A stretch of DNA of 60,169 bases, taken from Chryseosolibacter histidinae (GTDB lineage Bacteria > Bacteroidota > Bacteroidia > Cytophagales > Cyclobacteriaceae). The position numbers were made by a program, and so were the translations under genes. Below, piece after piece: positions 19,961 to 58,079 of this stretch; the stretch's first letter is position 1, and every line of letters starts with the position of its first letter. The stretch is taken from NCBI RefSeq assembly GCF_018598225.1, contig NZ_JAHESF010000041.1, positions 1 through 60,169 on the forward strand, read 5' to 3'. Under the pieces are notes generated by a model that did not search any database, had not been told where the DNA came from, and saw only the letters and a list, made by a program, of their open reading frames with translations.

Positions 19961-20160
19961 TTCACGCAAAGGGCGCCAAGAAGCGCAAAGGCCGCAAAGA
20001 TTTTAGTGTAAAGGCCTCTAGTGGTGTTGAACCGGTATCCTGAGCGTGGAATGGGGAGTTGGGTTTGTGCGAGCGAAGGATCCAGTGATCGCTGGCTGCG
20101 TACTTAATGACGGTGACGGAAAACCTTTGCGCTCTCTGAGGTTTCTTTGCGTTATTGAAT
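19961..20160. repeat. Composite inverted-repeat element (CGCAAAG-word arms with a nested half repeat)
   Basis: The outer arms are made of CGCAAAG-type words: 19961-20000 (TTCACGCAAAG, AAGCGCAAAGG, CGCAAAG) and, inverted, 20120-20160 (CCTTTGCG, TTTCTTTGCGTTATTGAA). The interior holds a half copy of another family: ACCGGTATCCTGAGCG at 20031-20046 and GTGCGAGCGAAGGATCC at 20067-20083, the same words as in the elements at 52915-53070 and 56570-56729. It begins 17 nt after the permease stop. Confidence 0.75.
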
Positions 20161-20258
20161 TTTTCGAAAAAAACTTTCGGCAGGTTTGTCCAATTATGCT
20201 GGGCCCGGTCATTATTGGGCTGTAAAGCATACATTCGAAACCTTTAAAACGAAAGAAA

Positions 20259-20597
20259 ATGAAAAACTTCATGTTATTGTTCCGGCAGCCAAGCTACGAT
20301 TACAGCAGCGTATCACCGAAGGAGATGGAGGCGCTCACCAAGAAATGGAAAGACTGGGCAGGAGGCATTGCTGCGCAGGGAAGACTGGTGAGCCCTGGTC
20401 CAAGGCTGGCTATGGAAGGTAAGGTGCTGAAAGCCGGCGGCGTGATCACAGATGGTCCTTTTGTTGAGATCCGGGAGCGGTTGGGCAGCTTTCTTATTGT
20501 AAAAGCCGAAAGCCTGGAGGAAGCTACCACGCTGGCACACGGATGTCCTGCCGTAGATTCCAACGGAAGTGTTGAGATCAGGCCTATCTTTGAATAA
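20259..20597 (+). CDS. YCII-related (DGPF) protein associated with ECF42
   Basis: 112 residues. MKNFMLLFRQPSYDYSSVSPKEMEALTKKWKDWAGGIAAQGRLVSPG, then GGVITDGPFVEIRERLGSFLIVKAESLEEATTLAHGCP. The DGPF signature (residues about 66-69) is the one after which the ECF42-linked partner family is named. Fold: dimeric ferredoxin-like (YciI). It lies 62 nt upstream of the ECF42-type sigma gene on the same strand. In studied ECF42 systems the DGPF genes are targets of the sigma factor. Confidence 0.92.
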   Translation: MKNFMLLFRQPSYDYSSVSPKEMEALTKKWKDWAGGIAAQGRLVSPGPRLAMEGKVLKAGGVITDGPFVEIRERLGSFLIVKAESLEEATTLAHGCPAVDSNGSVEIRPIFE

Positions 20598-20658
20598 GCG
20601 ATCACAAACAAAATGAACAACCCGCTCTGGATACAGGAGCGGGTTTCTGCCGTTGACT

Positions 20659-21882
20659 ATGGAGCACGAATCTTTAAAACATTTATTTCAGCAGGAGTTT
20701 TCCAGGATGGTGGCTGTGATCAGCAGGCGCTTCGGATTGCAGCACATCGAGATCGCGGAAGACATTGTCAGCGAAACTTTTTTGCAGGCCTCGGAAAGCT
20801 GGGGCATCAAAGGCATACCCGAGAATCCCACCGCCTGGCTTTATGCCGTAGCGAAACAAAAAACGTTGTATCATTTCAGGCGCAGCAGGATCTTCGAAGA
20901 GAAAGTGATCCCGGCGATCACTTCGGAAGTGGAAAGGAATGAGGAAACGGCCCTGGATTTTTCTACGCAGAACATCCGGGACAGCCAGCTGCAGATGCTC
21001 TTCGCCATTTGTAACCCCGCCATTGCCAGTGAAGCGCAGATAGGACTGGCGTTGCGTATCCTTTGTGGTTTTGGCATCGATGAAATTGCCGACGCCTTTC
21101 TTTCCAACAAAGAAACCATCAACAAAAGACTGTTCAGGGCCAGGGAGAAGCTGCGCACGGAGAACATCAGCATGGAGCTGCCGCCCGAAAGTGAGATCGC
21201 CGGCAGGCTCGACAACGTTCTGCATATCATCTACCTGCTTTTCAGCGAAGGCTATTATTCCAAAACCCAGGACCAGATCCTGCGAAAGGACCTGTGCATC
21301 GAAGCGTTGCGCCTCGGCCTGATGCTGACCGAGTACGAAAAGACCAATCTTCCCAGGACCAATGCGCTCATCGCCCTTATGTGTTTTCATGCTTCGCGAT
21401 TCGATGCCCGCCTGACGAACGGAGATGCGCTGGTACTATATGAACAGCAAAACGAAGCGTTGTGGGATCCAACCCTGATCAAACAAGGCATGCATTTTCT
21501 CGACGTTTCGGCACAGGGTGATGAAGTCAGCTCCTACCATCTCGAAGCCAGGATCGCCTGCTGGCACTGTATGAAAAAAGACACTCCTGAGAAGTGGCAG
21601 GACATCCTTCAGCTGTATGACGAGCTTCTGCGGGTTAACTATTCACCCAGCGTTGCGCTGAACAGGATCTTTGCCTTGTATAAGGTGAAAGGGCCACAGG
21701 CAGCGTTGACCGAAGCGTTGGCGCTGCGCATGGAAGACAATCATTTTTATTTTCTGCTGCTGGGTGAGCTCTACAGGCACCTTGATAAAACGAAGGCACG
21801 ATCCAGCTTTCAAACAGCGCATAATCTGGCCAGGACACAAACCGAAAAACAAGGCATCCAGGAGAAGATCCATAGCCTTTGA
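20659..21882 (+). CDS. ECF42-type RNA polymerase sigma factor with C-terminal extension
   Basis: 407 residues from the ATG at 20659 (MEHESLKHLFQQEF); a TTG six bases upstream is less likely. The sigma part has region 2 (HIEIAEDIVSETFLQASESWGIKGIPENPTAWLYAVAKQKTLYHFRR) and region 4 (GFGIDEIADAFLSNKETINKRLFRAREKLR). A long helical C-terminal extension (about 180-407), with LLFSEGYYSK and ALNRIFALYKVKGPQAAL, corresponds to the TPR-like DUF6596 extension. In this group the extension replaces the anti-sigma factor in regulation. The neighbouring DGPF gene confirms the group. Confidence 0.93.
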   Translation: MEHESLKHLFQQEFSRMVAVISRRFGLQHIEIAEDIVSETFLQASESWGIKGIPENPTAWLYAVAKQKTLYHFRRSRIFEEKVIPAITSEVERNEETALDFSTQNIRDSQLQMLFAICNPAIASEAQIGLALRILCGFGIDEIADAFLSNKETINKRLFRAREKLRTENISMELPPESEIAGRLDNVLHIIYLLFSEGYYSKTQDQILRKDLCIEALRLGLMLTEYEKTNLPRTNALIALMCFHASRFDARLTNGDALVLYEQQNEALWDPTLIKQGMHFLDVSAQGDEVSSYHLEARIACWHCMKKDTPEKWQDILQLYDELLRVNYSPSVALNRIFALYKVKGPQAALTEALALRMEDNHFYFLLLGELYRHLDKTKARSSFQTAHNLARTQTEKQGIQEKIHSL

Positions 21883-21973
21883 TAAAAATATTTTGTTCCG
21901 GTGGTCCAATTTCACCGGGGTCAGTACTCATAGGGATGTAATTCAGAAAGTTTAACCATTAAGAAACAAAACC

Positions 21974-22525
21974 ATGGATACGTTACTTCCTCCCATTGAG
22001 AAACCCGCTGGCCTGATCATGAAGCTTGCTTATTTCTTCACACGCCGGCAGTTCGGCAAGGTGCTGATGCCGCTGAAAGTGCATTCAGTAAGGCTGCCCG
22101 CCGCTTTTGGTATGTTCTATGGCAAGGTGTCGCAACTCGATAAAAAACTGACGTTGCGTGCAGAAACAGCGTTGCTCATCCGCGTGCAGGTGGCGCGCAT
22201 CAACATCTGCCTCTTTTGTATGGATGCCTCCCGCCGTGCCGCCATCGACGCCTCGATGCGCGAGGATAAATTCGATGCGCTGGATCAATACAGCACCAGC
22301 GCGCTTTTTACCGAGGCCGAACGTGTTGCGCTCGACTATGTGACCCTGCTGACGAAAGAAAAAAGAGTAGACCCAGATACCTTTGCCCGTTTGTCACGTC
22401 ACTATTCCGAACGCGAAATATGTGAGATCGTGTGGCTGGTGGGCAGCGAGCACCTGTACAACATGACCAACATCGCGCTCAATATCCATTCGGACATGCT
22501 CTGTGATCTCAGCAAAAGGAGGTAG
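21974..22525 (+). CDS. Carboxymuconolactone decarboxylase/AhpD-like protein
   Basis: 183 residues, all helical. The redox-type motif is INICLFCMDASRRAAID (CxxC with the following histidine-type position occupied by S/R), followed by LFTEAERVALDYVTLLTKEKRVDPDTFARLSRHYSEREICEIVWLVG and NIALNIHSDML. Members act as peroxidase partners or decarboxylases. It lies 91 nt after the ECF42 gene and on the same strand, so it may belong to the same response. An inverted-repeat element starts directly at its stop codon. Confidence 0.88.
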   Translation: MDTLLPPIEKPAGLIMKLAYFFTRRQFGKVLMPLKVHSVRLPAAFGMFYGKVSQLDKKLTLRAETALLIRVQVARINICLFCMDASRRAAIDASMREDKFDALDQYSTSALFTEAERVALDYVTLLTKEKRVDPDTFARLSRHYSEREICEIVWLVGSEHLYNMTNIALNIHSDMLCDLSKRR

Positions 22526-22660
22526 CCAGTTGCCGGTTACCAGTTGCCGGGTAGCCGGTTGGTGTGTGTGAATGTCAACGTTCAGTGCCAGCACAAGCTT
22601 TGGAAAAAGCGAATAAACTTCTCACTTTTGAACTTAGCTAACTGGTAACTGATAACCTCT
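22526..22660. repeat. Inverted word-repeat element, GTTGCCGG family, copy 1
   Basis: The left arm (22526-22562) is built of CCAGTTGCCGGTTA-type words; the shorter inverted right arm (22637-22658) contains AACTGGTAACTGATAACC. The spacer is about 74 nt. The TAG stop of the upstream gene joins the first word without a gap. Copies 2 and 3 are at 40961 and 57927. Confidence 0.75.
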
Positions 22661-22667
22661 CATTTAA

Positions 22668-23063
22668 ATGGAACCATCTATAAAATTCATCGGCAGAATT
22701 CATTCACCTTTCAAAAGAATAGAAGACTGTCCGCTGCAGGAACATGAAAATGCTCCGGAAGCATCCATCACCATCTTTCCTGACTTTGCAGAAGGTATCA
22801 AAGACATCAAAGCCGGTGACCAGCTCGTATTGCTGACGTGGCTCCACGCGGCAGACAGAACAGTAATAAAATGTATACCACGCCGGAACTACGATGCGCC
22901 GCAGATCGGTGTGTTCTCGACAAGGTCACCCGACAGGCCCAACCCGATAGGCATGCATACCGTCAAGGTGCTTTCGATCGCTGCTGATGGCATAAAGGTG
23001 TCGAACCTTGAAGTTCTTGATCAGACACCGCTGGTCGATATCAAACCTGTGATCAAAGGATGA
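22668..23063 (+). CDS. TrmO/TsaA-like tRNA methyltransferase domain protein
   Basis: 131 residues: KFIGRIHSPFK, then IKDIKAGDQLVLLTWLHAADRTVIK, then IGVFSTRSPDRPNPIGMHTVKVLSI and VLDQTPLVDIKP. These are the conserved blocks of the TrmO family, which methylates N6-threonylcarbamoyladenosine-37 of tRNA with SAM (RSPxRPNPIG and D-x-TP-x-xDIKP line the SAM pocket). It is shorter than the about 235-residue E. coli TrmO, lacking its C-terminal extension, as are many bacterial homologues. The activity may therefore differ. ATG at 22668 is the only sensible start. Confidence 0.85.
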   Translation: MEPSIKFIGRIHSPFKRIEDCPLQEHENAPEASITIFPDFAEGIKDIKAGDQLVLLTWLHAADRTVIKCIPRRNYDAPQIGVFSTRSPDRPNPIGMHTVKVLSIAADGIKVSNLEVLDQTPLVDIKPVIKG

Positions 23064-23089
23064 CATCCTTCAAAAGCATGTCATCTCTG

Positions 23090-24319
23090 TTATGCGATCT
23101 CTTTCACGGCATCAATGAACCGGGCGATCTCTTCTTCCGTATTGTAATAGTTGGGTGAAGCGCGGATGGCCCATGCTGCTTTTTTCTCATCGAAGTCGAT
23201 GACGGCAAAATTTCTGTAGCTAGGCACTACATTGATCCGGCGTTTCAGCAGCTGTTGTGTAAGATACACTGGCTCCGAGCCTTCCACGGTGAAGGTGACC
23301 AGTCCGCCAACTTCTGGACCTCTGTCGAGCACCCGCACTTTGTCAATGCCGGCAAGTTCTCCGCGCATGCGATCCGATAATGTTTTCACGCGTTGCCAGA
23401 TCCTGTCTTCGCCTATACCGAGACAATATTCGATGGCAACCCTGGTTCCCTGCACAATGGCATACGCAAATTCCCAGTCTTCGAACCTGGTGGCATCTTC
23501 CCTGGGTTTGTATAAATCCTTTTCAACCCACTCTGCGCCGCGCATGTCGATGAAGAGCGGTTCCAGTCCCGCCTGCAACGCTTTGTCTGAGATGTAAAGG
23601 AAGCCGGAGCCACGTGGTCCCCGGAGAAATTTGCGGCTTGTGACGCTGAGAAAATCGCACTTCAACGCCTGTACATCGAGGTTCATTTGCCCCAGTGATT
23701 GGCAGGCGTCGAGAAGGTACCAAGTTTCATAACGGCTGGCGATCTCACCGATCTGCTGCACCGGTTGAACGAGGCCGGAGTTGGTAGGAATGTGGGTGAT
23801 GGAAAGCAACCTGGGCCGAAGCGTCTTGAGCTTGTGGTCGAGGTCATTCAGGTCAACGCCACCAGAAGCGTCATTTCTAACACGCTCTATTCTGACACCG
23901 AATCTTTTACTGCACGAGAGGAACTGGATCTGGTTCGAGATAAAATCATCATTGGAAGTGAGGATCACGTCACCTGCCTTGAACGGGATAGACGACAAAG
24001 CCCTTGTGTAAGAATCCGTGGCGCTGGCTGTGAAGGCGATGTTGGTGGCCTTGCAGTTCAGAAGCCTGGCGGCCTGCGTGTAAAATGCTTTGACCTCCGC
24101 TGCCTTGAACGCCGAGGCTTCGTAGCCACCGATGCGCGCTTCGAGCCTGATGTGGTCCAGCATCGCATGGGTTACCGGATTGGGCATGAGTCCGGCGCCT
24201 GCGTTATTGAGGTGGATCACGTTTGCGCATCCTTCCGTATCGTTCCGGAACGCGAGGATCTCTTCCGCTGAAAATGGCTGAGGGCGCTTCGGCCCGGCTT
24301 CATTTGTTGTTTTCGTCAT
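23090..24319 (-). CDS. Class V aminotransferase-fold PLP enzyme
   Basis: 409 residues from the ATG at 24319 (MTKTTNEAG); a promoter -7 box at 24341-24348 rules against the longer frame to 24376. PLP-enzyme features include VIHLNNAGAGLMPNPV, SATDSYTRAL, LLSITHIPTNSGLVQPVQQIG, LLDACQSLGQMNLDVQ and the Schiff-base lysine in LSVTSRKFLRGPRGSGFLY (about residue 239). Relatives include cysteine-desulfurase- and epimerase-like proteins; the substrate is unknown. An Lrp regulator is divergent from it and probably controls it. Confidence 0.9.
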   Translation of the reverse strand: MTKTTNEAGPKRPQPFSAEEILAFRNDTEGCANVIHLNNAGAGLMPNPVTHAMLDHIRLEARIGGYEASAFKAAEVKAFYTQAARLLNCKATNIAFTASATDSYTRALSSIPFKAGDVILTSNDDFISNQIQFLSCSKRFGVRIERVRNDASGGVDLNDLDHKLKTLRPRLLSITHIPTNSGLVQPVQQIGEIASRYETWYLLDACQSLGQMNLDVQALKCDFLSVTSRKFLRGPRGSGFLYISDKALQAGLEPLFIDMRGAEWVEKDLYKPREDATRFEDWEFAYAIVQGTRVAIEYCLGIGEDRIWQRVKTLSDRMRGELAGIDKVRVLDRGPEVGGLVTFTVEGSEPVYLTQQLLKRRINVVPSYRNFAVIDFDEKKAAWAIRASPNYYNTEEEIARFIDAVKEIA

Positions 24320-24340
24320 GCTTGATAAATTTTTACACGG

Positions 24341-24348
24341 CAAAACTA
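24341..24348 (-). promoter_or_regulatory. -7 promoter element of the aminotransferase gene
   Basis: Minus strand TAGTTTTG matches TAnnTTTG, about 22 nt upstream of the ATG at 24319. A TTG lies 25 nt further upstream, slightly longer than usual. Confidence 0.5.
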
Positions 24349-24403
24349 CAGCAGGCTCCGTGCAGGAAAGATGCAAATGCGATCTGAAAACACTTTTTTG
24401 CCC

Positions 24404-24411
24404 TATTTTTG
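24404..24411 (+). promoter_or_regulatory. -7 promoter element of the Lrp gene
   Basis: TATTTTTG matches TAnnTTTG and lies 23 nt upstream of the Lrp ATG. A good -33 TTG at normal spacing is not seen. Confidence 0.4.
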
Positions 24412-24434
24412 ATTTTTAAACGCATAAAAGCTGC

Positions 24435-24898: not shown

Positions 24899-25000
24899 TC
24901 GCATGCGCCCATGTTGCGCCCCCATGTGGTGTTCTTCACCAACATGCTTCTGTGCCAGTGTTGGGTGCCGTTGTTGGTGTTCTTCACCAACAACATCCCC
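24899..25000. repeat. Hairpin-bearing word-repeat element flanking permease 2, left copy
   Basis: Words such as ATGCGCCCATGTTGCGCC lead into a first hairpin, (CATGT)GGTG-TTCTT-CACC(AACATG) (24923-24946). A second is perfect, GTTGTTGGTG-TTCTT-CACCAACAAC (24970-24994). The same perfect 25-nt hairpin occurs at 27903-27927, on the other side of the permease. It starts about 5 nt after the Lrp stop. Confidence 0.75.
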
Positions 25001-27838: not shown

Positions 27839-27842
27839 CCCG

Positions 27843-27935
27843 CGCCGTTGTTGGTGCGCCAATGCGCCAATGTTCGTGTTCGTGTGCCGTTGTTGGTGTG
27901 CCGTTGTTGGTGTTCTTCACCAACAACCAACATCC
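27843..27935. repeat. Hairpin-bearing word-repeat element flanking permease 2, right copy
   Basis: It contains GCGCCAATG words, then GTGCCGTTGTTGGTG twice, then the perfect hairpin GTTGTTGGTG-TTCTT-CACCAACAAC at 27903-27927. It begins 4 nt after the permease stop and fills the gap to the convergent regulator gene. Confidence 0.75.
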
Positions 27936-34799: not shown

Positions 34800-37211
34800 A
34801 TGTTTAAAAACTATCTGAAAATCGGGCTCCGGAACCTGTTGAAGAACCGGCTGTTCACTGTCATCAACATCAGTGGCATGGCGATCAGCATCGCCTCGTT
34901 CCTGATCATTGCACTGTTCATCTGGGATGAATGGAAGTTCGACAAGCACATCGAAGACGTATCACTGAAGTACCGTATTTATAACGAGCTGTTCTCAGAA
35001 GACGGCCGCGTGAGAAAAGGGGCCATGGTGCCGCCCATGATCGCGCCCACGCTCGCGGCAGAATACCCCGAAGTGGAGTCCTACTTCAGGTTCCTCAATT
35101 TCAACTACCCGGTGCTGTTTGAAGTGGGATCGAAAAAGATGACAGAAGACAAAGGTGGTTATGCCGATCCAACCGTGTTCGATATGTTCAGCCTGAAGCT
35201 TGTGGAGGGAGATCGTAAAACAGCGCTGAAAGACCTTAATACGGTGGCGATCAACACCACGCTGAAGCGGAAATATTTCGGTGATAAGCCGGCACTGGGA
35301 GAGAGCATCGAGATCTTCGACGTGAACTATAAGGTTACCGCGGTATACGAAGATTTTCCGCTCCACTCGCATCTTCAGCTCAACTACCTGCTTTCGATGG
35401 AAACTGTCAACCAGCAAATCCCCGAACGTATGAAGCGCTGGGGCTGGAATCAGTTCCATACGTATATCAAGCTGAAGCCCGGAGCGGATGCGTCGCAGCT
35501 GGAGGGCAAGCTGAAGGCTTTTGCTGAACGTCACGCCTGGCCCGAAACGAAACCCAACGGCAGCTATTATATTCCACACCTCATGCCCATGGAACAGATC
35601 CACCTGCATGCCGGTGACCAGGTATGGGATATCGCCGTGCGTGGCAGCGCCCAGACCAACTACATCCTTACGGCTACTGCCATTTTTATTCTTGTGATCG
35701 CCATCCTCAATTTCATCAACCTCTCAACCGCGCGTGCCGTGAGCCGTGTTAAAGAAGTGGGCGTAAGAAAAGTGGTGGGTGCATTGCGGACACAGCTCAT
35801 CTGGCAATTCATCAGCGAGTCCATGATCATTGCGTTCATCGCCTTGCTCATTGGCGGTTTGCTCACCGAGCTCACGTTGCCAGCGTTGAATTCATTCACC
35901 GATAAGCGCATCCCTACTGGTATATTTCTGGATCCGTTGCTTCTGCTCATCATCGTTGTGTTTGCCATGCTGGTGGGCATTGCAGCAGGCGCGTACCCTG
36001 CGTTCTACATCTCTTCCTCCAGGCCGGCACAGATTCTCACGAACAAACAGCATGGACGCTCCGGAAAATTTTTACTGCGGAAGGGGCTGGTGGTAGTGCA
36101 GTTCATCCTGTCGTTCTTTCTCATCATCGCTTCGCTTGTGGTCTCGCAGCAGCACACGTACATGCGTACGATGGATATGGGCTTCGATAAAGACAACCTG
36201 CTGGTGATCAGGATCCGGGGCAACGAGATGCAGCGTAACCTTGCCGCGGCCAAGCAGGCATTTTCAGATCACCCGAACATCATCAGCGCCACCATGGGTT
36301 ATGGTTTGCCGGGCGAAGCCTATGCCGGTGACGGCATCAAAGACAAGGAAACAAACAAGGACTGGCCCATCTCCATGCTCACGGTTGACCACGACTATAT
36401 CAAAACGTTGGGCATTGACCTCATTGCCGGCCGCGATTTCTCAGAGGACCTGCCGTCTGACGAACGAAGTGCTTTTATCTTAAGCGAAGCCGCTGCAAAA
36501 ATGCTGGGACACGCCAATCCCGCTGACGCGCTGGAGCACCCGCTGGCATGGAACAGGTGGGATGCTCCGGATTCTTTGAAAGAAGGAAAAGTGATCGGCA
36601 TCGTAAAAGATTTTCACCTCAACAGCCTGCGTGAGAATATCCTGCCCGTGGTGCTCCACGTTTACCCGTTCGCGTATTCATCGATGACGTTCCGGATCAA
36701 ACCCGATAACCTGCCGGCCACCATTGCCCACCTAGAGTCGACCTGGAAAAGGTTCAATTCGGAGTGGCCCTTCGAATATAAGTTCCTGGATGATAACTTC
36801 GACAAGCTTTACAAGTCAGAAGAAAAGCTGGCCACGTTGTTCACCTTCTTTACGGCCTTCACCATTTTTGTGGCCTGCCTGGGATTGTTCGGCCTGGTGG
36901 TGTACAGCACTACCCAGAAATACAGGGAGATCAGCATCCGCAAAGTACTGGGCGCCGAAGAATCAACGCTCGTGGTGCACCTTGCCAGGACCTATGCGCT
37001 GCTTCTCGCCATCGCTTTTGTTGTGGCCATACCCTTCAGCTACTATGCAGCCCACACATGGCTTCAGAAATTTGCTTACCGCATCGATATCACGCCGGTG
37101 TTATTTGTAAAGGCAGCACTCTTCATCATGGTGATGTCACTGGTGACGGTGGGGATCCAATCATTCAAAGCAGCAAGAGCGAATCCGGTGGATGCTTTGA
37201 AGGAACAGTAA
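34800..37211 (+). CDS. ABC transporter permease with two FtsX domains (copy 3), sigma-54 controlled
   Basis: 803 residues. Helix 1 (INISGMAISIASFLIIALFIWDE, about 22-44), periplasmic domain, FtsX 1 at about 290 (AILNFINLSTARAVSRVKEVGVRKVVGALRTQLIWQF), second periplasmic part, FtsX 2 at about 682 (ACLGLFGLVVYSTTQKYREISIRKVLGAE). It lacks an ATPase gene and is the only gene behind the sigma-54 promoter and palindromes. This makes it the probable target of the divergent NtrC/NtrY pair, as seen for many Bacteroidetes permeases of this type. Confidence 0.93.
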   Translation: MFKNYLKIGLRNLLKNRLFTVINISGMAISIASFLIIALFIWDEWKFDKHIEDVSLKYRIYNELFSEDGRVRKGAMVPPMIAPTLAAEYPEVESYFRFLNFNYPVLFEVGSKKMTEDKGGYADPTVFDMFSLKLVEGDRKTALKDLNTVAINTTLKRKYFGDKPALGESIEIFDVNYKVTAVYEDFPLHSHLQLNYLLSMETVNQQIPERMKRWGWNQFHTYIKLKPGADASQLEGKLKAFAERHAWPETKPNGSYYIPHLMPMEQIHLHAGDQVWDIAVRGSAQTNYILTATAIFILVIAILNFINLSTARAVSRVKEVGVRKVVGALRTQLIWQFISESMIIAFIALLIGGLLTELTLPALNSFTDKRIPTGIFLDPLLLLIIVVFAMLVGIAAGAYPAFYISSSRPAQILTNKQHGRSGKFLLRKGLVVVQFILSFFLIIASLVVSQQHTYMRTMDMGFDKDNLLVIRIRGNEMQRNLAAAKQAFSDHPNIISATMGYGLPGEAYAGDGIKDKETNKDWPISMLTVDHDYIKTLGIDLIAGRDFSEDLPSDERSAFILSEAAAKMLGHANPADALEHPLAWNRWDAPDSLKEGKVIGIVKDFHLNSLRENILPVVLHVYPFAYSSMTFRIKPDNLPATIAHLESTWKRFNSEWPFEYKFLDDNFDKLYKSEEKLATLFTFFTAFTIFVACLGLFGLVVYSTTQKYREISIRKVLGAEESTLVVHLARTYALLLAIAFVVAIPFSYYAAHTWLQKFAYRIDITPVLFVKAALFIMVMSLVTVGIQSFKAARANPVDALKEQ

Positions 37212-37215
37212 GAAT

Positions 37216-37373
37216 TAGAAGCCAGGAGCCAGGAGTCAGAAGTCAGTAGCATACGGTGTTAGAAAGTGAATTCTGACCCGCGAACCTATTACAGTGTTGC
37301 ATCCCGACCGATAACCGTTGTGATTTCACACGACATCCTTCTGGCTCCTGGCTTCTGACTCCTGACTTCTAGT
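37216..37373. repeat. Inverted word-repeat element, CCAGGAG/TCAGAAG family
   Basis: The left arm (37217-37247) alternates AGAAG, CCAGGAG, TCAGAAG words; the inverted right arm (37338-37372) uses the same words in shuffled order, so it is not a simple copy. The spacer is about 90 nt. It starts 4 nt after permease 3 and ends before the convergent stress-protein gene. Confidence 0.75.
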
Positions 37374-37390
37374 TTCTTTGCCTTCATTTT

Positions 37391-38398: not shown

Positions 38399-38547
38399 GT
38401 CCACGGTCCACAGTCGACGGTCCACAGCAGGACAGTGTTAAGTTATATTTGCCTGCTGGTCTGATTGTACAAGGGCACGATATACGAATACAATGAGTGT
38501 TATTCACACCATACGGCCGTGGACTGTGGTCCGTGGACCGTCGACTA
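38399..38547. repeat. Inverted word-repeat element, GTCCACAG/GTCGAC family, copy 1
   Basis: Left arm 38399-38428: GTCCACGGTCCACAGTCGAC then GGTCCACAG. Right arm 38517-38545 is the inverse (GTGGACTGTGGTCCGTGG, ACCGTCGAC). The spacer (about 88 nt) contains ACAGTGTTAAGTTATATTTG near the left edge and TTCACACCATACGGC at the right edge. It ends 8 nt past the stop of the copper-protein gene. Confidence 0.75.
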
Positions 38548-38553: not shown

Positions 38554-38907
38554 TCACATCATCGTATGGCATGCATCGGCGCAGGCTTCACACACCGAGG
38601 CGCAATGTTTACAATGTTCCTGGTTGTGCTTGTGGCATTCTTCGGCACACATCCGGCACATTTTTTCACATACCAGCATATAGTCTTCTGCTATTTCTGA
38701 CTGGCGTTGCAGAAGTCTTGCGGCCTGAAGGCAAATATCTGCGCAGTCGCGGGTGAGCTCGATGCAGCGCGCCATCAGGGTAATGTTGTCTTCGTTCAGG
38801 CACGCTGTTTCACAGTCTTCACAGGTGAGTGAACAATCGATAAGTTTTTGCTGCAGTTCGCGGTGGGATGCAAGCTTGCTGGTTTCAGTCATTACATGGG
38901 TTGCCAT
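38554..38907 (-). CDS. Four-helix-bundle copper-binding protein (Csp-like)
   Basis: 117 residues from the ATG at 38907 (MATHVMTETSK). About 15 cysteines lie in CxxxC/CxxC spacing on helices: LIDCSLTCEDCETACLNED, ARCIELTRDCADICLQAARLL, YMLVCEKMCRMCAEECHKHNQEHCKHCASVCEACADACHTMM. This is the pattern of Csp copper-storage proteins, which hold many Cu(I) ions inside a helical bundle. No signal peptide, so cytosolic. Function is inferred from the family. Confidence 0.9.
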   Translation of the reverse strand: MATHVMTETSKLASHRELQQKLIDCSLTCEDCETACLNEDNITLMARCIELTRDCADICLQAARLLQRQSEIAEDYMLVCEKMCRMCAEECHKHNQEHCKHCASVCEACADACHTMM

Positions 38908-39077
38908 AATTCCTTGGTTTGTCACCGGAAGCAAAATAATAATGCCTTACCGTCTATTGTTCAATCGGGTACATTTTTACACAAATAACCGGCCGTACAG
39001 CGAATGAACGACTTCTGTTTTCCTCGCCCGTAAGGCATGACGTTTTAAAATAATGTTGTGAATAAAAACACAGAAAC

Positions 39078-39560
39078 ATGAAACGTAACATCAGCATTCA
39101 TATTTTCTTTCTGGCTGCGCTCAGCATTGCAACACTCAGTGCTTCGGCCCAGGAAGAACAGAAGAGACGCGATGACAATGCGATCAACACAAGAAAAAAA
39201 ACTCCTGAAAAGATCATCGAACATATTGTTGGCACCTGGGAAGTAGAAGGGATCTACAAAGGCAAAAAGGATATCTCGAATACAGATACCGTTGGCGCCA
39301 ACCAGACCATCACATTCGACAGGGAAGCAAAATATGTGAGCTACTCCGCCAACGAGAAGATCGACAGTGGTACCTACAGACTGAATGAGAACCACTCGAT
39401 CCTGTACCTGGAAAGCGCCACAGGACAGGAACCCAGCGAATGGAGGGTGTCATTCAGCAACAACGGCATGACACTGCAGCCACGCGAGACCTACCCGCAC
39501 GCAGAAAGCTTCCGGTACATTTACACACGCAAATCGAACGAAGGAAAGATCGAGAATTAG
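39078..39560 (+). CDS. Secreted lipocalin-like protein
   Basis: 160 residues with a signal peptide (MKRNISIHIFFLAALSIATLSASA/QEE). The mature part has HIVGTWEVEGIYKGKKDI, ITFDREAKYVSYSANEKIDSGTYRLNENHSILYLESA and EWRVSFSNNGMTLQPRE, the G-x-W opening of lipocalin-like small Bacteroidetes proteins followed by beta-strand repeats. A basic linker (RRDDNAINTRKKTPEK) precedes it. The ligand is unknown. Confidence 0.8.
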   Translation: MKRNISIHIFFLAALSIATLSASAQEEQKRRDDNAINTRKKTPEKIIEHIVGTWEVEGIYKGKKDISNTDTVGANQTITFDREAKYVSYSANEKIDSGTYRLNENHSILYLESATGQEPSEWRVSFSNNGMTLQPRETYPHAESFRYIYTRKSNEGKIEN

Positions 39561-39567
39561 AAATTCA

Positions 39568-39681
39568 GTCCACAGTCGACGGTCCACAGTCCACGGCAGT
39601 GTAGTGTGCGTTGAGGGAACATAGCCATTATTAGATGACAACACCTTACGGCTGTGGACTGTCGACTGTGGACCGTGGACT
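39568..39681. repeat. Inverted word-repeat element, GTCCACAG/GTCGAC family, copy 2
   Basis: Left arm 39568-39597 (GTCCACAGTCGACGGTCC, ACAGTCCACGG); right arm 39652-39681 (CTGTGGACTGTCGACTGTGG, ACCGTGGAC). The spacer is about 54 nt and ends AACACCTTACGGC, close to the ends of the other D and C elements. It starts 7 nt after the lipocalin-like gene and reaches the convergent fatty-acid hydroxylase gene. Confidence 0.75.
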
Positions 39682-40960: not shown

Positions 40961-41142
40961 GGTTGCCGGTTGCCAGTTCCCGGTTGCCAGTTTCGGCGCG
41001 TGTAAACTTACACTTAACGTCTTCGGTCAAGTTAAACGATATCGAAGCTAATCCTCCCCCCAAATCGGAGGAGGACCGTGTAACTTAGTCTGCCCTGAAC
41101 TGGTAACCGGCAACTGGCAACCTCGTTAACCGGTAACCGGCA
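40961..41142. repeat. Inverted word-repeat element, GTTGCCGG family, copy 2
   Basis: Left arm 40961-40995 (GGTTGCCGGTTGCCAGTTCC, CGGTTGCCAG) and right arm 41100-41142 (CTGGTAACCGGCAACTGGC, then AACCGGTAACCGGCAACTA). Inside the spacer a separate CCTCC/GGAGG hairpin is at 41049-41075. It joins the TAG stop of the amidohydrolase gene with no gap. Confidence 0.75.
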
Positions 41143-41143
41143 A

Positions 41144-42727
41144 CTATTTCACCCCGGGTTGTGACAGCTTAAAACCACTCCGTTCTTTTTCGGTTTTCAC
41201 GATCGTGCGCACATCTTCCAGCAGTTTTTTGGCGTCGTAGATGATGCCGTCTTTGATGGTGTATTTGATGCCGCGGGTACGCACTACGTTGTTATCGTCC
41301 GTTAACCTGATGGCGCCGGTGCCATACAACACCTGGAGGTTTTGCAAAGGATTCTCTTCTACGATCACAAAGTCGGCGAGCTTACCGACCTCCACCGAGC
41401 CGAGGTCTTTTTCTTTTCCCAGTGCCTGGGCGCCGAACAAGGTTGCCGAGCGGATCACTTCCAGCGGATGGAAGCCGGCTTCGCGCAGCAGCTCGAGCTC
41501 GCGGATGTAGGCGAATCCGTAAAGCTGAAAGATAAAGCCTGAGTCGGAACCTGTGGTCACCCTTCCACCCCTGTTCTTATACTCGTTCACAAAGGTCATC
41601 CACAGGCGGTAGTTCTCTTTCCATTCCACCTCTTCTTCCGTTCCCCAGGCATGCCAGTACGATCCGTGAGAGATCTTGCTCGGTTGATAGAATGCCCAGA
41701 GCTTCGGAAGTGTATAGTCCTCATGCCACTCGGCCCTGCGCGCACGGTGAAGGTCGCGGCTCGCCTCATAGATATTAAAAGTAGGATCGATGGTGAAGTC
41801 CAGGGCCAGCAGCTCGTTCATCACTTTGTTCCAGTGCTCCGAGTAGGGCGGGGCTGCCTGTTTCCAGAGCTTGCCGGCTTCCCGGAAACGGTGCTGCTCG
41901 TTCTGGTAATTATAATCGAGCGGGTAATCCTGAATGGTACGATTGGTGAACAGCGCTTCGGGCAGTCCATACCAGTGCTCCATGGAAGTAAGGCCGGCGC
42001 GTGCGGAGTGCAGCACGTTCCAGCGGGCCACATCTGTTTGTGCGTGGTGGCAGGCGGAGCGCAGGCCGAGCTTTTTATTTTCGCGCAAAGCGGCATCCAT
42101 CACTTCGGGTGGAGCGCCAAAGAACTTGATGCCGTCGGCTCCTTTTTTTGCATTCTCGTTGACCCAGGCTTTTGCCTGATCGGCCGTGGAGATGCGCGAG
42201 GTGCTTCCCTGTCCGAAAACCGTGTAAGCAAAGATCCTGGGCGCAGTGATCTGATTTTTTTCACTTTTCTGCTTTTGATCCATCACCCAGTCGAGGCCAT
42301 TGCCTGCGGAAGGTTCGCGGATGGTGGTGATGCCGTGGGCCATCCAGAGTTTGAAAACATATTCTGCATCAGGAGCCTGGTTGCCGCCGATGTGCCCATG
42401 CATGTCTATAAAACCAGGCATCAGGTACAAACCTTCGGCATTCAGCTCCCGGCCACCCGGTTCCAGCTTGGGCCGCCGGTCGGGATTGATGGAAACACCC
42501 GGAAATCCAACCGATTGGATCTGAACGATGCGATTTTGTTTGATAACGATGTCCGTGGGACCAACTGGGGGTGCTCCGGTGCCGTCGATGAGCATCACGC
42601 CGCGGATAATGAGTTGACTGTAAGGACCTTCGCCCTCTTTGATCTCGGGCGCTTTTTTGATTTGCGCCAGGCCGGACAGCGATCCTATACATAAGAGCAG
42701 GGTAATAAGCGTATAAACTTTCTTCAT
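41144..42727 (-). CDS. Secreted amidohydrolase-family protein
   Basis: 527 residues, signal peptide MKKVYTLITLLLCIGSLSGLA (1-21). Metal-dependent amidohydrolase fold: GLYLMPGFIDMHGHIGGN (HxH, about 105-120), KGADGIKFFG, SACHHAQTDV and AGLTSMEHWYG (metal histidines), TGSDSG (catalytic Asp, about 395), and the closing LGSVEVGKLADFVIVEENPLQNL. It is exported, probably to the periplasm, and could act on a cyclic amide or a peptide. The substrate is unknown. It is alone in its transcription unit. Confidence 0.9.
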   Translation of the reverse strand: MKKVYTLITLLLCIGSLSGLAQIKKAPEIKEGEGPYSQLIIRGVMLIDGTGAPPVGPTDIVIKQNRIVQIQSVGFPGVSINPDRRPKLEPGGRELNAEGLYLMPGFIDMHGHIGGNQAPDAEYVFKLWMAHGITTIREPSAGNGLDWVMDQKQKSEKNQITAPRIFAYTVFGQGSTSRISTADQAKAWVNENAKKGADGIKFFGAPPEVMDAALRENKKLGLRSACHHAQTDVARWNVLHSARAGLTSMEHWYGLPEALFTNRTIQDYPLDYNYQNEQHRFREAGKLWKQAAPPYSEHWNKVMNELLALDFTIDPTFNIYEASRDLHRARRAEWHEDYTLPKLWAFYQPSKISHGSYWHAWGTEEEVEWKENYRLWMTFVNEYKNRGGRVTTGSDSGFIFQLYGFAYIRELELLREAGFHPLEVIRSATLFGAQALGKEKDLGSVEVGKLADFVIVEENPLQNLQVLYGTGAIRLTDDNNVVRTRGIKYTIKDGIIYDAKKLLEDVRTIVKTEKERSGFKLSQPGVK

Positions 42728-46926: not shown

Positions 46927-46951
46927 ACTTTAGGCGTCTGGTTGTTTAGTG

Positions 46952-46986
46952 GGAGTCGGGTGGAAACACCTGGCTCCTTTTTTTTT
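46952..46986 (+). terminator. Rho-independent terminator of glnII
   Basis: An 11-bp stem GGAGTCGGGTG/CACCTGGCTCC (two wobble pairs) with a GAAA tetraloop is followed by nine Ts, 26 nt after the glnII stop. Confidence 0.9.
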
Positions 46987-47057
46987 GAGCTGATTTTATT
47001 CGCTATTGAATGGAACTTTATATTATTTTGATAAAAATTTAAAATAAAGATCAAACC

Positions 47058-47711: not shown

Positions 47712-47793
47712 TCCCGATAGCTATCGGGAACGAAATACGAGGTACGTTTAGCGTACCTCGTATTTTTTTGCCTATTGCTTCCCGATATCGGGA
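47712..47793. terminator. Bidirectional terminator flanked by palindromes
   Basis: Palindrome TCCCGATAGCTATCGGGA (47712-47729), then a 14-bp perfect stem, AAATACGAGGTACG/CGTACCTCGTATTT with a 5-nt loop and T-tract (47733-47769), then palindrome TCCCGATATCGGGA (47780-47793). It lies between convergent stops (47705 and 47822). Words TTGCCTATTGC/GCCTACCGCC fill the rest. Confidence 0.85.
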
Positions 47794-47821
47794 TTGCCTG
47801 TTGCTTTTTGCCTACCGCCTA

Positions 47822-52789: not shown

Positions 52790-52914
52790 ACGAGAGGGTT
52801 CGAACAGTAATGAAGTTAGCGTTATCATATGTGAAATGAAAGATCACATTGATGATAGCATGAGAAGTGGAACAACTGTATGGCTAGGTGCAGGAACTTA
52901 TCTTTTTTAATCGA

Positions 52915-53070
52915 TATCCTGAGTGGCGCCTGTGGGTGGGTATGAGCGAACGAAGGATCCCCATATAACAAAGTGCAAGCGCTCAATGCAGATGTACGAA
53001 TCAAAGTGCGCAGTAACGATCCGGGGATCCTTCGTTCGCACCGGCCATCGCGCTGTCATCACTCAGGATA
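52915..53070. repeat. Full inverted-repeat element, GATCCTTCG family, copy 2
   Basis: Outer ends TATCCTGAGTG (52915-52925) and CACTCAGGATA (53060-53070). Inner arms GCGAACGAAGGATCCCC (52946-52962) and the exact inverse (53023-53039). The centre carries ATAACAAAGTGCAA and GTGCGCAGTAACG. The element is 156 bp and could fold into one long hairpin. It is the only element lying between divergent genes. The rest of 52829-53345 has nothing else recognised except the hemA promoter. Confidence 0.85.
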
Positions 53071-53328
53071 CCGGTAGAAGGGGGCGGAGCAGAAAAGAAT
53101 GCTGGTTTATAATCGACTCCATAAGCTTGAGCACTTCAAATGCTTGTTCGTGTAAGCCATTGCATGCCGCCATTAGGACATCGGCAAAAGGGGTGAATTT
53201 CAAGGGAAATCAGAACTAAAAACAACCTGCTTTCGTAATAGAAGAAGCCATGGTATAATCCCTTATTTATACTGATTCTAAATTACAGTTTAAGTGATTT
53301 TTGTCATGTACGGTTTTTTGCCGCGGCT

Positions 53329-53336: not shown

Positions 53337-53345
53337 CATTTCAAG

Positions 53346-54605: not shown

Positions 54606-55577
54606 TCACGATCTCAGCGATCCGGGACAAACCCCGAATTTTTTTCTGAACGCCGTTGAAAAATGGTTGGGATTCCTGTATCCTACTTCGCGTGAGACCT
54701 CATTTACAAACATGCCCGTGTCTATCAACAGGTGCCGCGCATGGTTCATCCGCAGGTCGAAAATAAAATCGAAGATCGTTTGCCCGAAAAGCTCCCTGAA
54801 TTGTTTCTTCAGCTTGAACTCGTTGATGCCGAACGTGGTCGACAATGACTGCAGTGAATGGTCGTGGTGAAAGGTGACCAGCAGGTGTTCGCGCAGCTGC
54901 TCAAGCACATCCTTATCCCTTCTGTTGATACGCACAGCCTGTACGTTGCTGCCGCGCTGGTAGTGTTCCAGCTGCAGGGCGAGCAGCTCGAGTACTTTCG
55001 CCTCCAGGAAGAGTTTGCGTACGGTGCCGGAGAGCGGACAGTTGATGATCGCTTCTATGGCCTGACGTATTGCGGGACTGCGCAGTCCATCGCCGCTATA
55101 CAACATTTCTTTCCTGAGAAGCTTTTCGCGTAATGTGTCAGACCAATTTTCTGAGGGACATAGGAGGGAGGAGAAGTAATCAGTGCATACCTGAAAATGC
55201 GCAACCCGGATATTTTTATGGACCACCAGCTCATAATTTGTTTCAGGTATGTATATGAAGTGATGTGCTCCTGCACCAAGCTCGGTTAACAATCCTACCT
55301 CGTGGAAATTGGTGCCAACACGCCCCTGAATGGGCATGCAGACATTGACAACACCCGGCAACGCATCATGCTGAACCTGGATCTTGCAATCACGCTCGAA
55401 CGTTGTGCGGATCTCTCTGACGCTGAAGGTATCCAGGTCCAGGGTCCGTTCTTCGTACTTTCCGATCGACTCACAATCTGAAGCCCAGGCTTTGAACCCA
55501 TAAGCTTCTTCCGGCCCTGATAACGGATATGATTGCTGAAGAATTTCCTGGTATTGAAGGAGAGCGGGACTGGACAT
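54606..55577 (-). CDS. AraC-family transcriptional regulator
   Basis: 323 residues with an effector-binding N-terminal half (FERDCKIQVQHDALPGVVNVCMPIQG, THFIYIPETNYELVVHKNIRVAHFQVC) and two C-terminal HTH motifs (HDHSLQSLSTTFGINEFKLKKQFRELFG and VNEVSREVGYRNPNHFSTAFRKKFG). Its stop codon abuts the hemA stop on the other strand with no gap. It is divergent from the cytochrome c gene. Confidence 0.92.
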   Translation of the reverse strand: MSSPALLQYQEILQQSYPLSGPEEAYGFKAWASDCESIGKYEERTLDLDTFSVREIRTTFERDCKIQVQHDALPGVVNVCMPIQGRVGTNFHEVGLLTELGAGAHHFIYIPETNYELVVHKNIRVAHFQVCTDYFSSLLCPSENWSDTLREKLLRKEMLYSGDGLRSPAIRQAIEAIINCPLSGTVRKLFLEAKVLELLALQLEHYQRGSNVQAVRINRRDKDVLEQLREHLLVTFHHDHSLQSLSTTFGINEFKLKKQFRELFGQTIFDFIFDLRMNHARHLLIDTGMFVNEVSREVGYRNPNHFSTAFRKKFGVCPGSLRS

Positions 55578-55667
55578 AAACTCCGTTTTGCGTATGCAAT
55601 GCTCCGTTTAACGAAGTCCGGTGCTGAAGGTTTGATCGTATACGGTCTAAATCAGTTAAAACAACCT

Positions 55668-56546
55668 ATGCTAAAAAAAATCTTGAAAGTTGTCGGTATC
55701 ATTTTGGGTGTTCTGGTGCTTTTGGTGGCCGGATTTTATACGAAAGTATATTTCAGTGTGAAGGAGCGAATGAACAAGGTTTATGCTGTCACGCCTCAGG
55801 AAATTACCGTAGACGCCACAGACTCGGTGCTCATTGCCACGGGCCAGCGCTACGTACGCTCGAAGGGCTGCAAAGATTGTCATGGCGATGATCTTGGTGG
55901 CAAAGTGTTTATTGATGATCCTGCGTTAGGGCTGCTCATTGCACGCAACCTCACAAAAGGAGAAGGCGGACTTCCGGATGATTATGACACCCGCGATTGG
56001 GTGCTGGCACTGAAGCACGGCATCAGGCGCGATGGCAAACCGCTGCTGTTTATGCCTTCGCACGAATATGCGCAGCTCACGGAGTGGGATATGAAAGCCC
56101 TGATCGCTTATTGTTCACAGCTGCCGAAGATAGACCGTGAGCTTCCGCAGAGCGATGTGGGTCCCCTTGGCAAGATCCTGACGGACCTTGGCAAACTTCC
56201 CCTGTTGCCGGCGGAGATGATCGACCACAACAAAACGCTGGTGAAGGAGATCAAAGCCGAAGCCACGGCGGCGTATGGCAAATATCTCGCTACGGCGTGC
56301 CAGGGATGCCATCGTGAGAACATGAAAGGTGGCGAACCTGTGGCGCCCGGATTCCCGCCGGTTGCCGATATCAGCGCGAGCGGAAACCCTGGTAAGTGGA
56401 CGGCCGAGCAGTTCATGGAAACCCTGCGCACCGGTAAAACGCCGGAAGGCAAGACCCTGAAACAGGAAGAGATGCCCTGGTCTATGACCAAAGCTTACAC
56501 AGATGTGGAGCTGCGGGCGCTGCATCTTTACCTGAATACATTGTAA
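55668..56546 (+). CDS. Membrane-anchored dihaem cytochrome c
   Basis: 292 residues from the ATG at 55668 (MLKKILKVVGIILGVLVLLVAGFYTKVYFS, an uncleaved N-terminal anchor). Two haem sites: SKGCKDCHGDDLGGKVF (about 72) and ATACQGCHRENMKGG (about 207), with candidate axial Met residues downstream (LLFMPSHEYAQL, EEMPWSMTKAY). The two class I-like domains face the periplasm. Such proteins shuttle electrons for oxidases or dehydrogenases; no partner gene is adjacent. Confidence 0.9.
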   Translation: MLKKILKVVGIILGVLVLLVAGFYTKVYFSVKERMNKVYAVTPQEITVDATDSVLIATGQRYVRSKGCKDCHGDDLGGKVFIDDPALGLLIARNLTKGEGGLPDDYDTRDWVLALKHGIRRDGKPLLFMPSHEYAQLTEWDMKALIAYCSQLPKIDRELPQSDVGPLGKILTDLGKLPLLPAEMIDHNKTLVKEIKAEATAAYGKYLATACQGCHRENMKGGEPVAPGFPPVADISASGNPGKWTAEQFMETLRTGKTPEGKTLKQEEMPWSMTKAYTDVELRALHLYLNTL

Positions 56547-56569
56547 ACAAGCCCGCCCCGTGCGGCCGT

Positions 56570-56729
56570 CATTCTGAATGATGGCAGGTGCGATGGCTGG
56601 CGCGAGTGAAGAATCCCCAGATAGCGAAGTGCAAATTGTAAGACACGTGCTAGAATCAGGTACGCAGTACGCTTCCGGGGATCCTTCGCTCGCACATGCC
56701 AGCACACTACTCACCGCTCAGGATATCGG
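56570..56729. repeat. Inverted-repeat element, GATCCTTCG family, copy 3
   Basis: Inner arms CGCGAGTGAAGAATCCCC (56601-56618) and GGGGATCCTTCGCTCGCAC (56677-56695), with outer right end ACCGCTCAGGATATCGG. The left outer end (GTCATTCTGAATGATGG) has diverged. The core shares ATAGCGAAGTGCAA and TACGCAGTACG with copy 2. It lies between two plus-strand genes, about 23 nt after the cytochrome stop. Confidence 0.8.
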
Positions 56730-56796
56730 TTTTATGAAAAGAATGTAATTTTCTTTCCCTACCTTCGACTAATCTTTCAAGTATCTCTTCTTTTTG

Positions 56797-57306
56797 GTGA
56801 TAGGCGAAGAAAAACGATTCATTAACCTGATCAATGAGCATCAGGGTCTGATCTACAAGGTTTGCATCATGTATGAGAATGACCCGGACGCCCGGAACGA
56901 CCTGTTTCAGGAAATTGTACTTCAGCTCTGGAAATCGTTTTCCACCTTCCGCGGTGAGGCCAAGATCACTACATGGATGTATCGCATTGCCCTGAACACC
57001 GCCATTTCCGGATACCGGAAACAAACGCGGAACCTCAGAACAGAAGACCTTCAGGAATTGCACTTCAACATTTCGGAGCATGCGGCCAGTGACGACCGTG
57101 AGGAAGATATTCAGAAGCTTCAGTGGGCGATCCGCCAGCTTTCTGAAATTGAACGGGCAATGATCATGATGGCGCTTGAAGAAGTACCCTATGACGAGAT
57201 CGCAGAGACCATTGGGATCACCCAAAATAACGTGCGGGTCAGGATGAACCGGATCCGTGAAAAACTAAGAAAACTGATGTGTGCCGATAGCCATGGAATT
57301 AGATGA
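56797..57306 (+). CDS. ECF-type RNA polymerase sigma factor
   Basis: About 169 residues. No ATG fits the N-terminus: the frame starts with TTG 56794 or GTG 56797 (VIGEEKRFINLINEHQGLIYKV), so a non-ATG start is likely. Region 2: LFQEIVLQLWKSFSTFRGEAKITTWMYRIALNTAISGYRKQ (about 37-78). Region 4: WAIRQLSEIERAMIMMALEEVPYDEIAETIGITQNNVRVRMNRIREKLRKLM. The next gene overlaps by 14 nt, an ECF/anti-sigma-like arrangement. Confidence 0.9.
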   Translation: MIGEEKRFINLINEHQGLIYKVCIMYENDPDARNDLFQEIVLQLWKSFSTFRGEAKITTWMYRIALNTAISGYRKQTRNLRTEDLQELHFNISEHAASDDREEDIQKLQWAIRQLSEIERAMIMMALEEVPYDEIAETIGITQNNVRVRMNRIREKLRKLMCADSHGIR

Positions 57307-57925
57307 ACTAAAACACATTTGGAAAAAAACGGATGTTGACTTTCATCCCAAGGGAGAAGCGGAGTTAGCATCGATGCTCAAGGGCAACAGCAAGTCTATC
57401 ATTGATAAGCTCAAACGCAGTGTGTGGCTCGAGCTGGTCTTTACGCTCATTGCGAGCATTGTGCTGCTGGTCTATGCGCTGAATCTTCCCAGCGGGGCGC
57501 TGAAATGGATCTCGGTGTCCATCCTGGCGATCTTCGCGGTCTACCCCGTTTATTATATCAAAAAACTGATGCTGCTCCACCGGTTCGAGGGTGCCTCCGA
57601 TAACCTGAAAGCCAACCTTGAACAGCTCATTGAAAGCCTTACACTGTACCTGCGGTTCTACAAACGCAGTTATACCATGTTGTACCCGGTATACTTCTGC
57701 CTCGCGCTGGCATTTATCGCCATCGAAAGAGGCTTCGATGAATTCCTGAACATCCTCTTCAAGCTGGAGACCATGCTCTATCTGCTCTTCCTGGCGGGTG
57801 TGTTCTACTTCTGCAGCACGTGGCTGGTGAACTGGCTGCTGCGAAAGCTCTATGGCAGGCACCTCGATAAGCTGCAAAGCCTGCTGAATGAGCTGAATAG
57901 TTATGAGAGGCCGGAAGCCGCGTGA
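57293..57925 (+). CDS. Membrane protein coupled to the ECF sigma factor (probable anti-sigma)
   Basis: 210 residues from the ATG at 57293 (MELDELKHIWKKTDVDFHPKG), overlapping the sigma gene by 14 nt. A soluble N-terminal part (1-45) binds the sigma factor in analogous pairs; then four membrane helices (about 48-66, 70-90, 130-150, 160-185). The KKTD-type start and 'KHIWKKTD' are typical of these Bacteroidetes ECF partner proteins. A repeat element starts 1 nt after its stop. Confidence 0.8.
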   Translation: MELDELKHIWKKTDVDFHPKGEAELASMLKGNSKSIIDKLKRSVWLELVFTLIASIVLLVYALNLPSGALKWISVSILAIFAVYPVYYIKKLMLLHRFEGASDNLKANLEQLIESLTLYLRFYKRSYTMLYPVYFCLALAFIAIERGFDEFLNILFKLETMLYLLFLAGVFYFCSTWLVNWLLRKLYGRHLDKLQSLLNELNSYERPEAA

Positions 57926-57926
57926 T

Positions 57927-58079
57927 GGTTGGCCGGTTGCCAGTTACCGGGTGGCCGGTTCAGTGAGGCTTTGATTCATTACGGTTGAATTGCAATTCCA
58001 GCAGAATATGGTATCGTTTTTTGAAGCAGGAAGGTCTAAGTTCACACGTCTAGAACCGGCAACAGGCAACCGGCAACTA
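57927..58079. repeat. Inverted word-repeat element, GTTGCCGG family, copy 3
   Basis: Left arm 57927-57960 (GGTTGGCCGGTTGCCAGTTA, CCGGGTGGCCGGTT), right arm 58053-58079 (AACCGGCAACAGGCAACCGG, CAACTAA). The spacer is about 93 nt. It lies between convergent genes, with the left arm starting just after the upstream stop. Confidence 0.75.

Follow-up and report, generated by a model that had tools for sequence, protein, structure and literature searches.

The 60,169-nucleotide contig NZ_JAHESF010000041.1 of Chryseosolibacter histidinae (the window) contains imperfect inverted repeats whose arms are arrays of about four seven-base words, and such heptad elements recur in a larger sample of the same genome, most of them anchored at stop codons. 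The two arms of an element differ from each other in a regular way, and the spacers between them are mostly unrelated from copy to copy; one element has clearly been inserted into a convergent gene pair with overlapping stop codons, and a sister species carries other words at the same sites. We read these repeats as noncoding elements with heptad arms, similar to the hairpin-forming doublets of repetitive extragenic palindromic (REP) sequences known as REPINs, that were gained whole at the 3' ends of genes and whose survivors act as transcribed 3' hairpins; we put the probability of this reading at about 0.5. A unit of two inverted arms around an unconserved spacer would be gained entire at a gene 3' end, copies would spread by means of some enzyme that acts on the arms without duplicating the target, and the words would drift through seven-base slippage or exchange between arms. 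The hairpins may be kept for a function in RNA, insulating the 3' ends of mRNAs or protecting them, chiefly where genes converge.

Heptad arrays, their placement, and their arms

The DNA examined in this genome came to 1.26 Mb, the window plus 1.2 Mb of further sequence. Self-similarity at a lag of 7 bases gave 150 runs, 131 of them intergenic; every other lag from 4 to 15 gave at most 6, except lag 14 with 79. Inverted pairs of arrays numbered 97 at period 7 and 4 at period 9, with none at periods 4, 5, 6, 8, and 10 to 13, and none in any of three Markov-resampled versions of the sequence. The period-7 pairs far exceed chance. Once the arms had been seen, they were sorted by eye into eleven word families. 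The same design is present in a sister species of the same genus (G002; a 1.0-Mb sample, records L087-L096 and L261-L300), which gave 100 runs at lag 7 and no more than 17 at any other lag in the range 4 to 21 (lags 14 and 21 aside), together with 49 inverted pairs of period 7, in words unlike those of this genome. A further 17 inverted pairs in G002 had period 8, a second word length in that genome. Strong period-7 runs were scarce in a second sister species (G001; 1 in 100 kb) and in a further relative (G003; 2 in 100 kb), and twenty stretches from other relatives, several of them short, held 7, of which two were runs of N.

Genes were called with a purpose-written script, and start positions are therefore approximate. 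The outer end of an arm lay a median of 3 nt from the stop codon, with 92 of 115 stop sides at 10 nt or less (57 at 0 to 10 nt past the stop and 35 overlapping it), and a median of 68 nt from the start codon, with 12 of 73 start sides at 10 nt or less. Uniform placement in the same gaps predicted 62.6 ± 2.5 stop-near sides, or 70.4 ± 2.5 if 40 nt were reserved before starts, compared with 92 of 113 observed; with the same reserve, tandem gaps alone gave 42 of 51 observed compared with 23.0 ± 2.1 expected. Stop anchoring was replicated in G002, where 38 of 56 stop sides (median, 4.5 nt) and 8 of 42 start sides lay within that distance. A preliminary description of the window, made from the sequence alone, had reported twelve elements that, with one exception, begin near stop codons, and this observation holds outside the window. 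Among gaps of at least 100 nt, convergent ones were enriched in elements (32 of 95 elements versus 78 of 503 gaps) and divergent ones were avoided (11 of 95 versus 131 of 503). In convergent gaps, the DNA outside the element had a median length of only 6.5 nt (n = 30), versus 91 nt for gaps without an element (n = 128). An element lay within 60 nt of the stop codon of 108 of the 1,006 genes called in the sample, about one in nine. At 0 to 10 nt there was no preference for a type of stop codon (TAA 24, TGA 19, and TAG 14, versus 462, 313, and 231), which speaks against the stop-codon sequence itself as the target. Judged from sequence, these positions fit a transcribed 3' hairpin that would guard or separate mRNA ends, and perhaps the elements are kept as such.

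Arm length clustered near four units (median, 28.5 nt in family B and 31 nt in family A), and each family had its own range of spacer lengths, with medians of 87 nt in A, 93 nt in B, and 33.5 nt in C. No single spacer length is common to the families. Within an element, neither arm is a copy of the other: the two were no more complementary than arms re-paired between elements (P = 0.99 in A and P = 1.0 in B). In families B and B' (25 elements, 17 of them scoreable on both arms), a GTCGAC or GTCGAT unit stood at differing positions in the two arms in 15 of the 17, and in 12 it was third from the outside in one arm and second in the other, an arrangement that would leave the stem with two mismatches, one C-C and one G-G; for two elements, C21:53036 and C34:110734, the scored difference is due solely to the trimming of a degenerate outermost unit. 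In family A, exactly one arm carried an eight-base unit in 17 of 27 elements, and in none did both. An RGTGT box followed the arrays of several families, with counts of 14 of 54 family A arms (2.1 expected) and 12 of 34 family B arms (1.2 expected), and began at offset 7 in 11 of 50 B and B' arms. An RGT motif pointed inward in 95 of 97 pairs, a count that shows only constancy within families, because the families were defined after the arms had been seen.

Folded as RNA, whole elements reached z scores below -2 in 89 of 89 cases from eight families. Single arms mostly folded no better than shuffled sequence, with z below -2 in 0 of 34 B arms and 1 of 36 C arms, and the outcome was partial in A and B', where 10 of 54 and 6 of 16 arms, respectively, fell below that value.

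Three adjacent family A elements, C34:120371, 123227, and 124361, have spacers that can be aligned. Between the first two, the word order of the left arms differs and the right arms agree, which is a possible view of arm change after duplication.

Gain, turnover, and competing explanations

Gene order is conserved between parts of G002 and both contig C67 and the window, and the flanking proteins are mostly 60 to 97% identical. Of the 110 conserved adjacent gene pairs, 91 are nondivergent. Turnover between the two species has affected many 3' gaps. The gap 57925/58092 holds a family A element here and CCAAATN heptads in G002, and at 120585/120672 the GTAATC words of this genome stand opposite GTTTATA words in G002. 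The clearest case is an empty site at C67:154174-154304 (gap 154192/154304), of the kind for which the preliminary description had suggested a search: an AGTAGGC element about 130 nt long is present here, and both G002 and, by eye, G001 have overlapping stop codons, from which we conclude that the element was gained in this genome. The upstream open reading frame (ORF) ends within the heptads, reading INKGIVGSRQ here and INKKVAARN in G002. The spacer is 99 nt long, and 29 nt of it match elsewhere in the sample. The genes of the pair 13074/13211 are 136 nt apart in this genome and 1 nt apart in G002, and the end of the downstream ORF contains heptads; at 122994/123211, where this genome has a CGCAGAG-type element, the stops overlap in G002 and G001 has a short hairpin.

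We noted by eye that G002, directly past the stop of its orthologue of window gene 34800-37211 (L088:4429-4640), has inverted CCCCTAAAT-type words of another period.

Occupancy by inverted repeats was compared in 47 conserved nondivergent gaps that measure 30 nt or more in each species, a gap being scored when none of 60 shuffles of it reached the observed repeat. Both species had one in 12 gaps, only this genome in 6, only G002 in 2, and neither in 27 (P printed as 0.0000). The association held overall under four criteria (P ≤ 0.002), and a first test with 12 shuffles per gap had given 10, 5, 2, and 30 in the same order (P = 2.9e-5).

Several results count against elements gained whole and kept as 3' hairpins. 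Spacers are mostly unmatched between copies; the 13 of 72 that have a second match in the sample are mostly nested repeats or neighboring duplicates, and in this the elements are unlike ordinary transposition products. A U-tract followed the stem in 13 of 100 cases, against a background of 9.9%, the D element at 47712 being an exception by eye. The direction of change is settled by two sister species at one site only. Heptad elements themselves occurred independently at orthologous 3' ends (both species, 1; one species, 24; neither, 134), which speaks against sites being strictly conserved. The co-occurrence of inverted repeats weakened when split by orientation (P = 0.002 to 0.043 by criterion in tandem gaps; P = 0.13 to 0.40 in convergent gaps, n = 10), a rerun with 12 other shuffles left 6 gaps occupied in both species (tandem P = 0.18, convergent P = 1.0), and the co-occurring sites include ordinary stem-loops, such as 44434/44546. 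Finally, searches for Y1 transposases, for RVT_1 domains, and for an enclosing transposon found no enzyme linked to the elements.

The details of these searches are as follows. Target-site duplications were not found (k = 3, 43 versus 36.9 expected; k = 4, 9 of 95 versus 12.5; k = 5, 1 versus 3.1). This genome has four Y1 transposase genes, and arrays lay within 1.5 kb of one of them; 21% of random 3.2-kb stretches hold an element by chance. In G002, arrays lay near one of five Y1 genes, and G001 also has four, yet only the single strong period-7 run in 100 kb. Mobilization by a REP-associated tyrosine transposase (RAYT) is therefore unsupported by linkage. The GTAG/CGTC tag was likewise not detected at the 190 outer ends, whose 14-nt stretches held GTAG 9 times and CGTC twice, against background rates of 2.4% and 2.3%. 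No two family A arrays lay 350 to 4000 nt apart as the ends of a transposon might, and the sole such pair in family B (2,132 nt) has two ORFs between its arrays, of which one is PadR-like and the other has no Pfam match; a transposon with heptad ends was rejected. Y1 enzymes recognize imperfect hairpins without duplicating their target, and a mobilizer that acts in this way would fit. The preliminary description had suggested a mobile element that targets transcript ends; this is possible but unproven, given the lack of stop-codon preference, of target-site duplication, and of a linked transposase.

Growth by slippage alone, also raised in the preliminary description, appears unlikely. Short pre-existing 3' hairpins would lengthen by seven-base polymerase slippage, with quasi-palindrome template switching keeping the arm words matched; period 7 in both species is in line with this, and Mrazek 2007, as recounted in PMC4679880, reported that in most genomes heptanucleotides outnumber all other long simple repeats, for which the contact length of the polymerase has been proposed as the cause. 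Copying from arm to arm should, however, make the arms of one element more complementary than re-paired arms, which they are not, and neither the common internal box nor the regular arm differences follow from slippage. The empty site would also require a new 99-nt spacer, partly matched elsewhere, within an element of about 130 nt. This insertion, the mostly unrelated spacers, and the regular arm differences together speak against slippage as the only builder.

It is quite unlikely that each word family is a binding array for a DNA- or RNA-binding protein, with selection keeping the arms at 3' ends and the spacers neutral. Such sites would account for conserved arms beside unconserved spacers, for about four units per arm, for family-specific spacer ranges, and for word sets that differ by species, but about eleven families in one genome would demand as many factors, and the origin of whole elements would go unexplained. 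A neutral account, in which insertion occurs anywhere and copies are retained where harmless, so that 3' enrichment arises without function or targeting, strikes us as decidedly doubtful. It agrees with the lack of stop-codon preference, the avoidance of divergent and start-proximal space, and the independence of heptads at orthologous sites; against it stand a stop proximity above that of uniform placement, also when 40 nt before starts are kept free, the leftover DNA in convergent gaps far below that of typical gaps, and the coincidence of inverted-repeat sites between species, the last being less firm by orientation. Templated addition of heptads to both ends of a break by a telomerase- or reverse-transcriptase-like activity, prompted by the inward RGT polarity, was rejected, since a search of the genome for RVT_1 gave no match at an E value of 0.001 and the polarity is not universal in G002 (of 49 pairs by a GT/AC measure, 13 in, 27 out, and 9 tied).

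A further proposal, which we advance tentatively, is that the elements form a modular 3'-end class, in which some machine would place heptad arms regardless of the interior, be it an unrelated spacer or another repeat, as in the GAAGGATCC copies with outer arms described below. From one sister species to the next the words would change, with occupancy persisting at many sites; this would amount to fast, word-based concerted evolution of bacterial 3' ends. If elements are indeed gained whole and kept as 3' hairpins, then gene 3' ends are rewritten by elements that resemble simple repeats but have a regular architecture. Two separate observations, the abundance of heptamers in bacteria and REPIN-like 3' hairpins, would be united, and there would be a direct test of why heptamers are common and of the way in which 3' boundaries and new C-terminal codons arise in convergent genes.

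Relation to known repeats

The comparisons below draw on excerpts of the papers cited. The closest parallel is the GGGAATC heptamer of Xanthomonas (GGGGAYT in Nostoc), which is mostly intergenic, usually has four copies per array, and prefers the vicinity of stop codons (Rehm et al. 2015, PMC4692102); two Xanthomonas genomes have 70 and 75 convergent inverted heptamer pairs (PMC4692102). Seven-base tandem units, about four per array, proximity to stops, and convergent inverted pairs are shared with the elements described here, and were therefore already known. In contrast, Xanthomonas and Nostoc each have a single G-rich word with quadruplex potential; here there are about eleven word families in one genome, and a G3 quadruplex motif was found in 0 of 190 arms on either strand. 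The present elements also differ from the Xanthomonas heptamers in that pairing is common, the arms differ regularly, an internal box is present, and the words are unlike those of the sister species.

REPINs are extragenic inverted doublets with a less conserved spacer that form a long hairpin (PMC3116915, PMC3733652); inverted hairpin doublets are thus likewise known (PMC3116915). REPs lie mostly between convergent or unidirectional ORFs, close to 3' ends (PMC3733652), so the rule of stop proximity alone is not new. The likeness lies in two inverted conserved ends, a less conserved spacer, and one hairpin (97 pairs, with strong folding in all 89 folded). Unlike REPINs, the elements have arms that are heptad arrays, mostly not self-folding palindromes, and they have neither a GTAG/CGTC tag nor a linked RAYT. 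The TAACTGA heptamers of Beggiatoaceae, cyanobacteria, and Bacteroidetes (MacGregor 2015, PMC4679880) are also intergenic arrays scattered over phyla, but they use a single word, are mainly direct repeats, and in the main genome studied lie mostly just upstream of start codons (PMC4679880). Miniature inverted-repeat transposable elements are similarly short, intergenic, and without genes; the present elements differ in having no target-site duplication and mostly no common interior. They differ from intrinsic terminators in that a U-tract is about as frequent as in the background. In a search confined largely to non-subscription literature, we found no earlier description of a single genome with many heptad families whose arms differ regularly, nor of an empty site or of words being replaced between sister species.

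The exact word GTTGCCRGTTGCCRGTTGCC occurs in at least 114 stretches across many phyla, some of them probably coding; since some 85,000 genomes were searched, this spread says little about transfer. Inverted heptad pairs of GTTGCC- or GTTGTC-type words, some in long arrays, were seen in distant phyla, namely in Desulfobacterales (L209), Acidobacteriaceae (L166 and L218), and Hymenobacter (L162).

Elements of the window and other repeat kinds

Inverted arms made of word repeats are present at all twelve places named in the preliminary description, the one at 56570 having been missed by the repeat finder and seen in the GAAGGATCC alignment. They do not form one class. By eye, seven are heptad elements (listed at 22526, 37216, 38399, 39568, 40961, 47712, and 57927), with words GTTGCCR in family A, GTCCACR in B, RGTACGA in D, and AGYCAGR in E. 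For these the idea of one design stands (period 7, about four units, inverted arms, stop anchoring); it fails for the other five, which are GAAGGATCC repeats (52915 and 56570), GGTGTTCTT repeats (24899 and 27843), and a CGCAAAG element (19961). With at least three other repeat kinds lumped in, a single mechanism for all twelve is unsupported.

A strict heptad detector accepted four of the seven. The family E element at 37217..37377 lies between the stops at 37211 (+) and 37391 (-). Family B has two, at 38399..38546, whose right end is 7 nt from the stop of ORF 38554-38934 (-) (present in the ORF list with a DUF326 match and not called by the gene script), and at 39566..39681, which is separated from the stops at 39560 (+) and 39686 (-) by 5 and 4 nt, respectively. 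The fourth, of family A at 40961..41148, has right arms at 41098-41122 and 41128-41148 and reaches the stop at 41144 (-). A further family A element, 22529..22656, has its left arm at 22529-22560 and its right arm at 22640-22656; it starts 3 nt past the stop at 22525 and fell below the detector threshold. The one at 57932..58077 carries an eight-base unit in one arm and occupies the convergent gap 57925/58092. The D element at 47712..47820 consists of a hairpin followed by a T run, like a terminator, with TCCCGATAGCTATCGGGA and TTGCCTA words around it; it occupies a convergent gap, and the matching gap in G002 has unrelated inverted words.

The GAAGGATCC inverted repeat has a near-constant length and 17 copies in the 1.26 Mb, among them sites in the window, C45, C111, and C34. 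Of 21 detected entries, 18 were aligned and three were set aside, one of these being an overlapping duplicate; among the 18, the entry at C21:8336 lies inside a gene and was a false match. By eye, arms of the GTCCAC type flank 10 of the 17 on one or both sides and arms of the CGCAAAG type are present in 2; the remaining 5 lack either kind. Both window copies, 52912..53073 and 56560..56735, are without outer arms; the first had been singled out in the preliminary description as an exception to the stop-codon rule, which its being a different kind of repeat explains. The CGCAAAG-word element at 19963..20152, which is not a heptad element, contains a truncated GAAGGATCC repeat.

The GGTGTTCTT hairpin family, represented in the window at 24905..24994 and, in a convergent gap, at 27842..27927, has 24 exact genomic copies of its 23-mer. 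Its stop anchoring is weak (median, 45 nt; 5 of 11 stop sides at 25 nt or less), and its hairpins sit in some spacers of families A and G. Either GAAGGATCC and GGTGTTCTT repeats insert into loops or outer arms were added around them.

Rfam at gathering scores found a single tRNA in the window and nothing else. At 46927-47057 the window has a stem-loop followed by a T run whose sequence resembles its G002 counterpart, an ordinary conserved terminator in contrast to the heptad elements.

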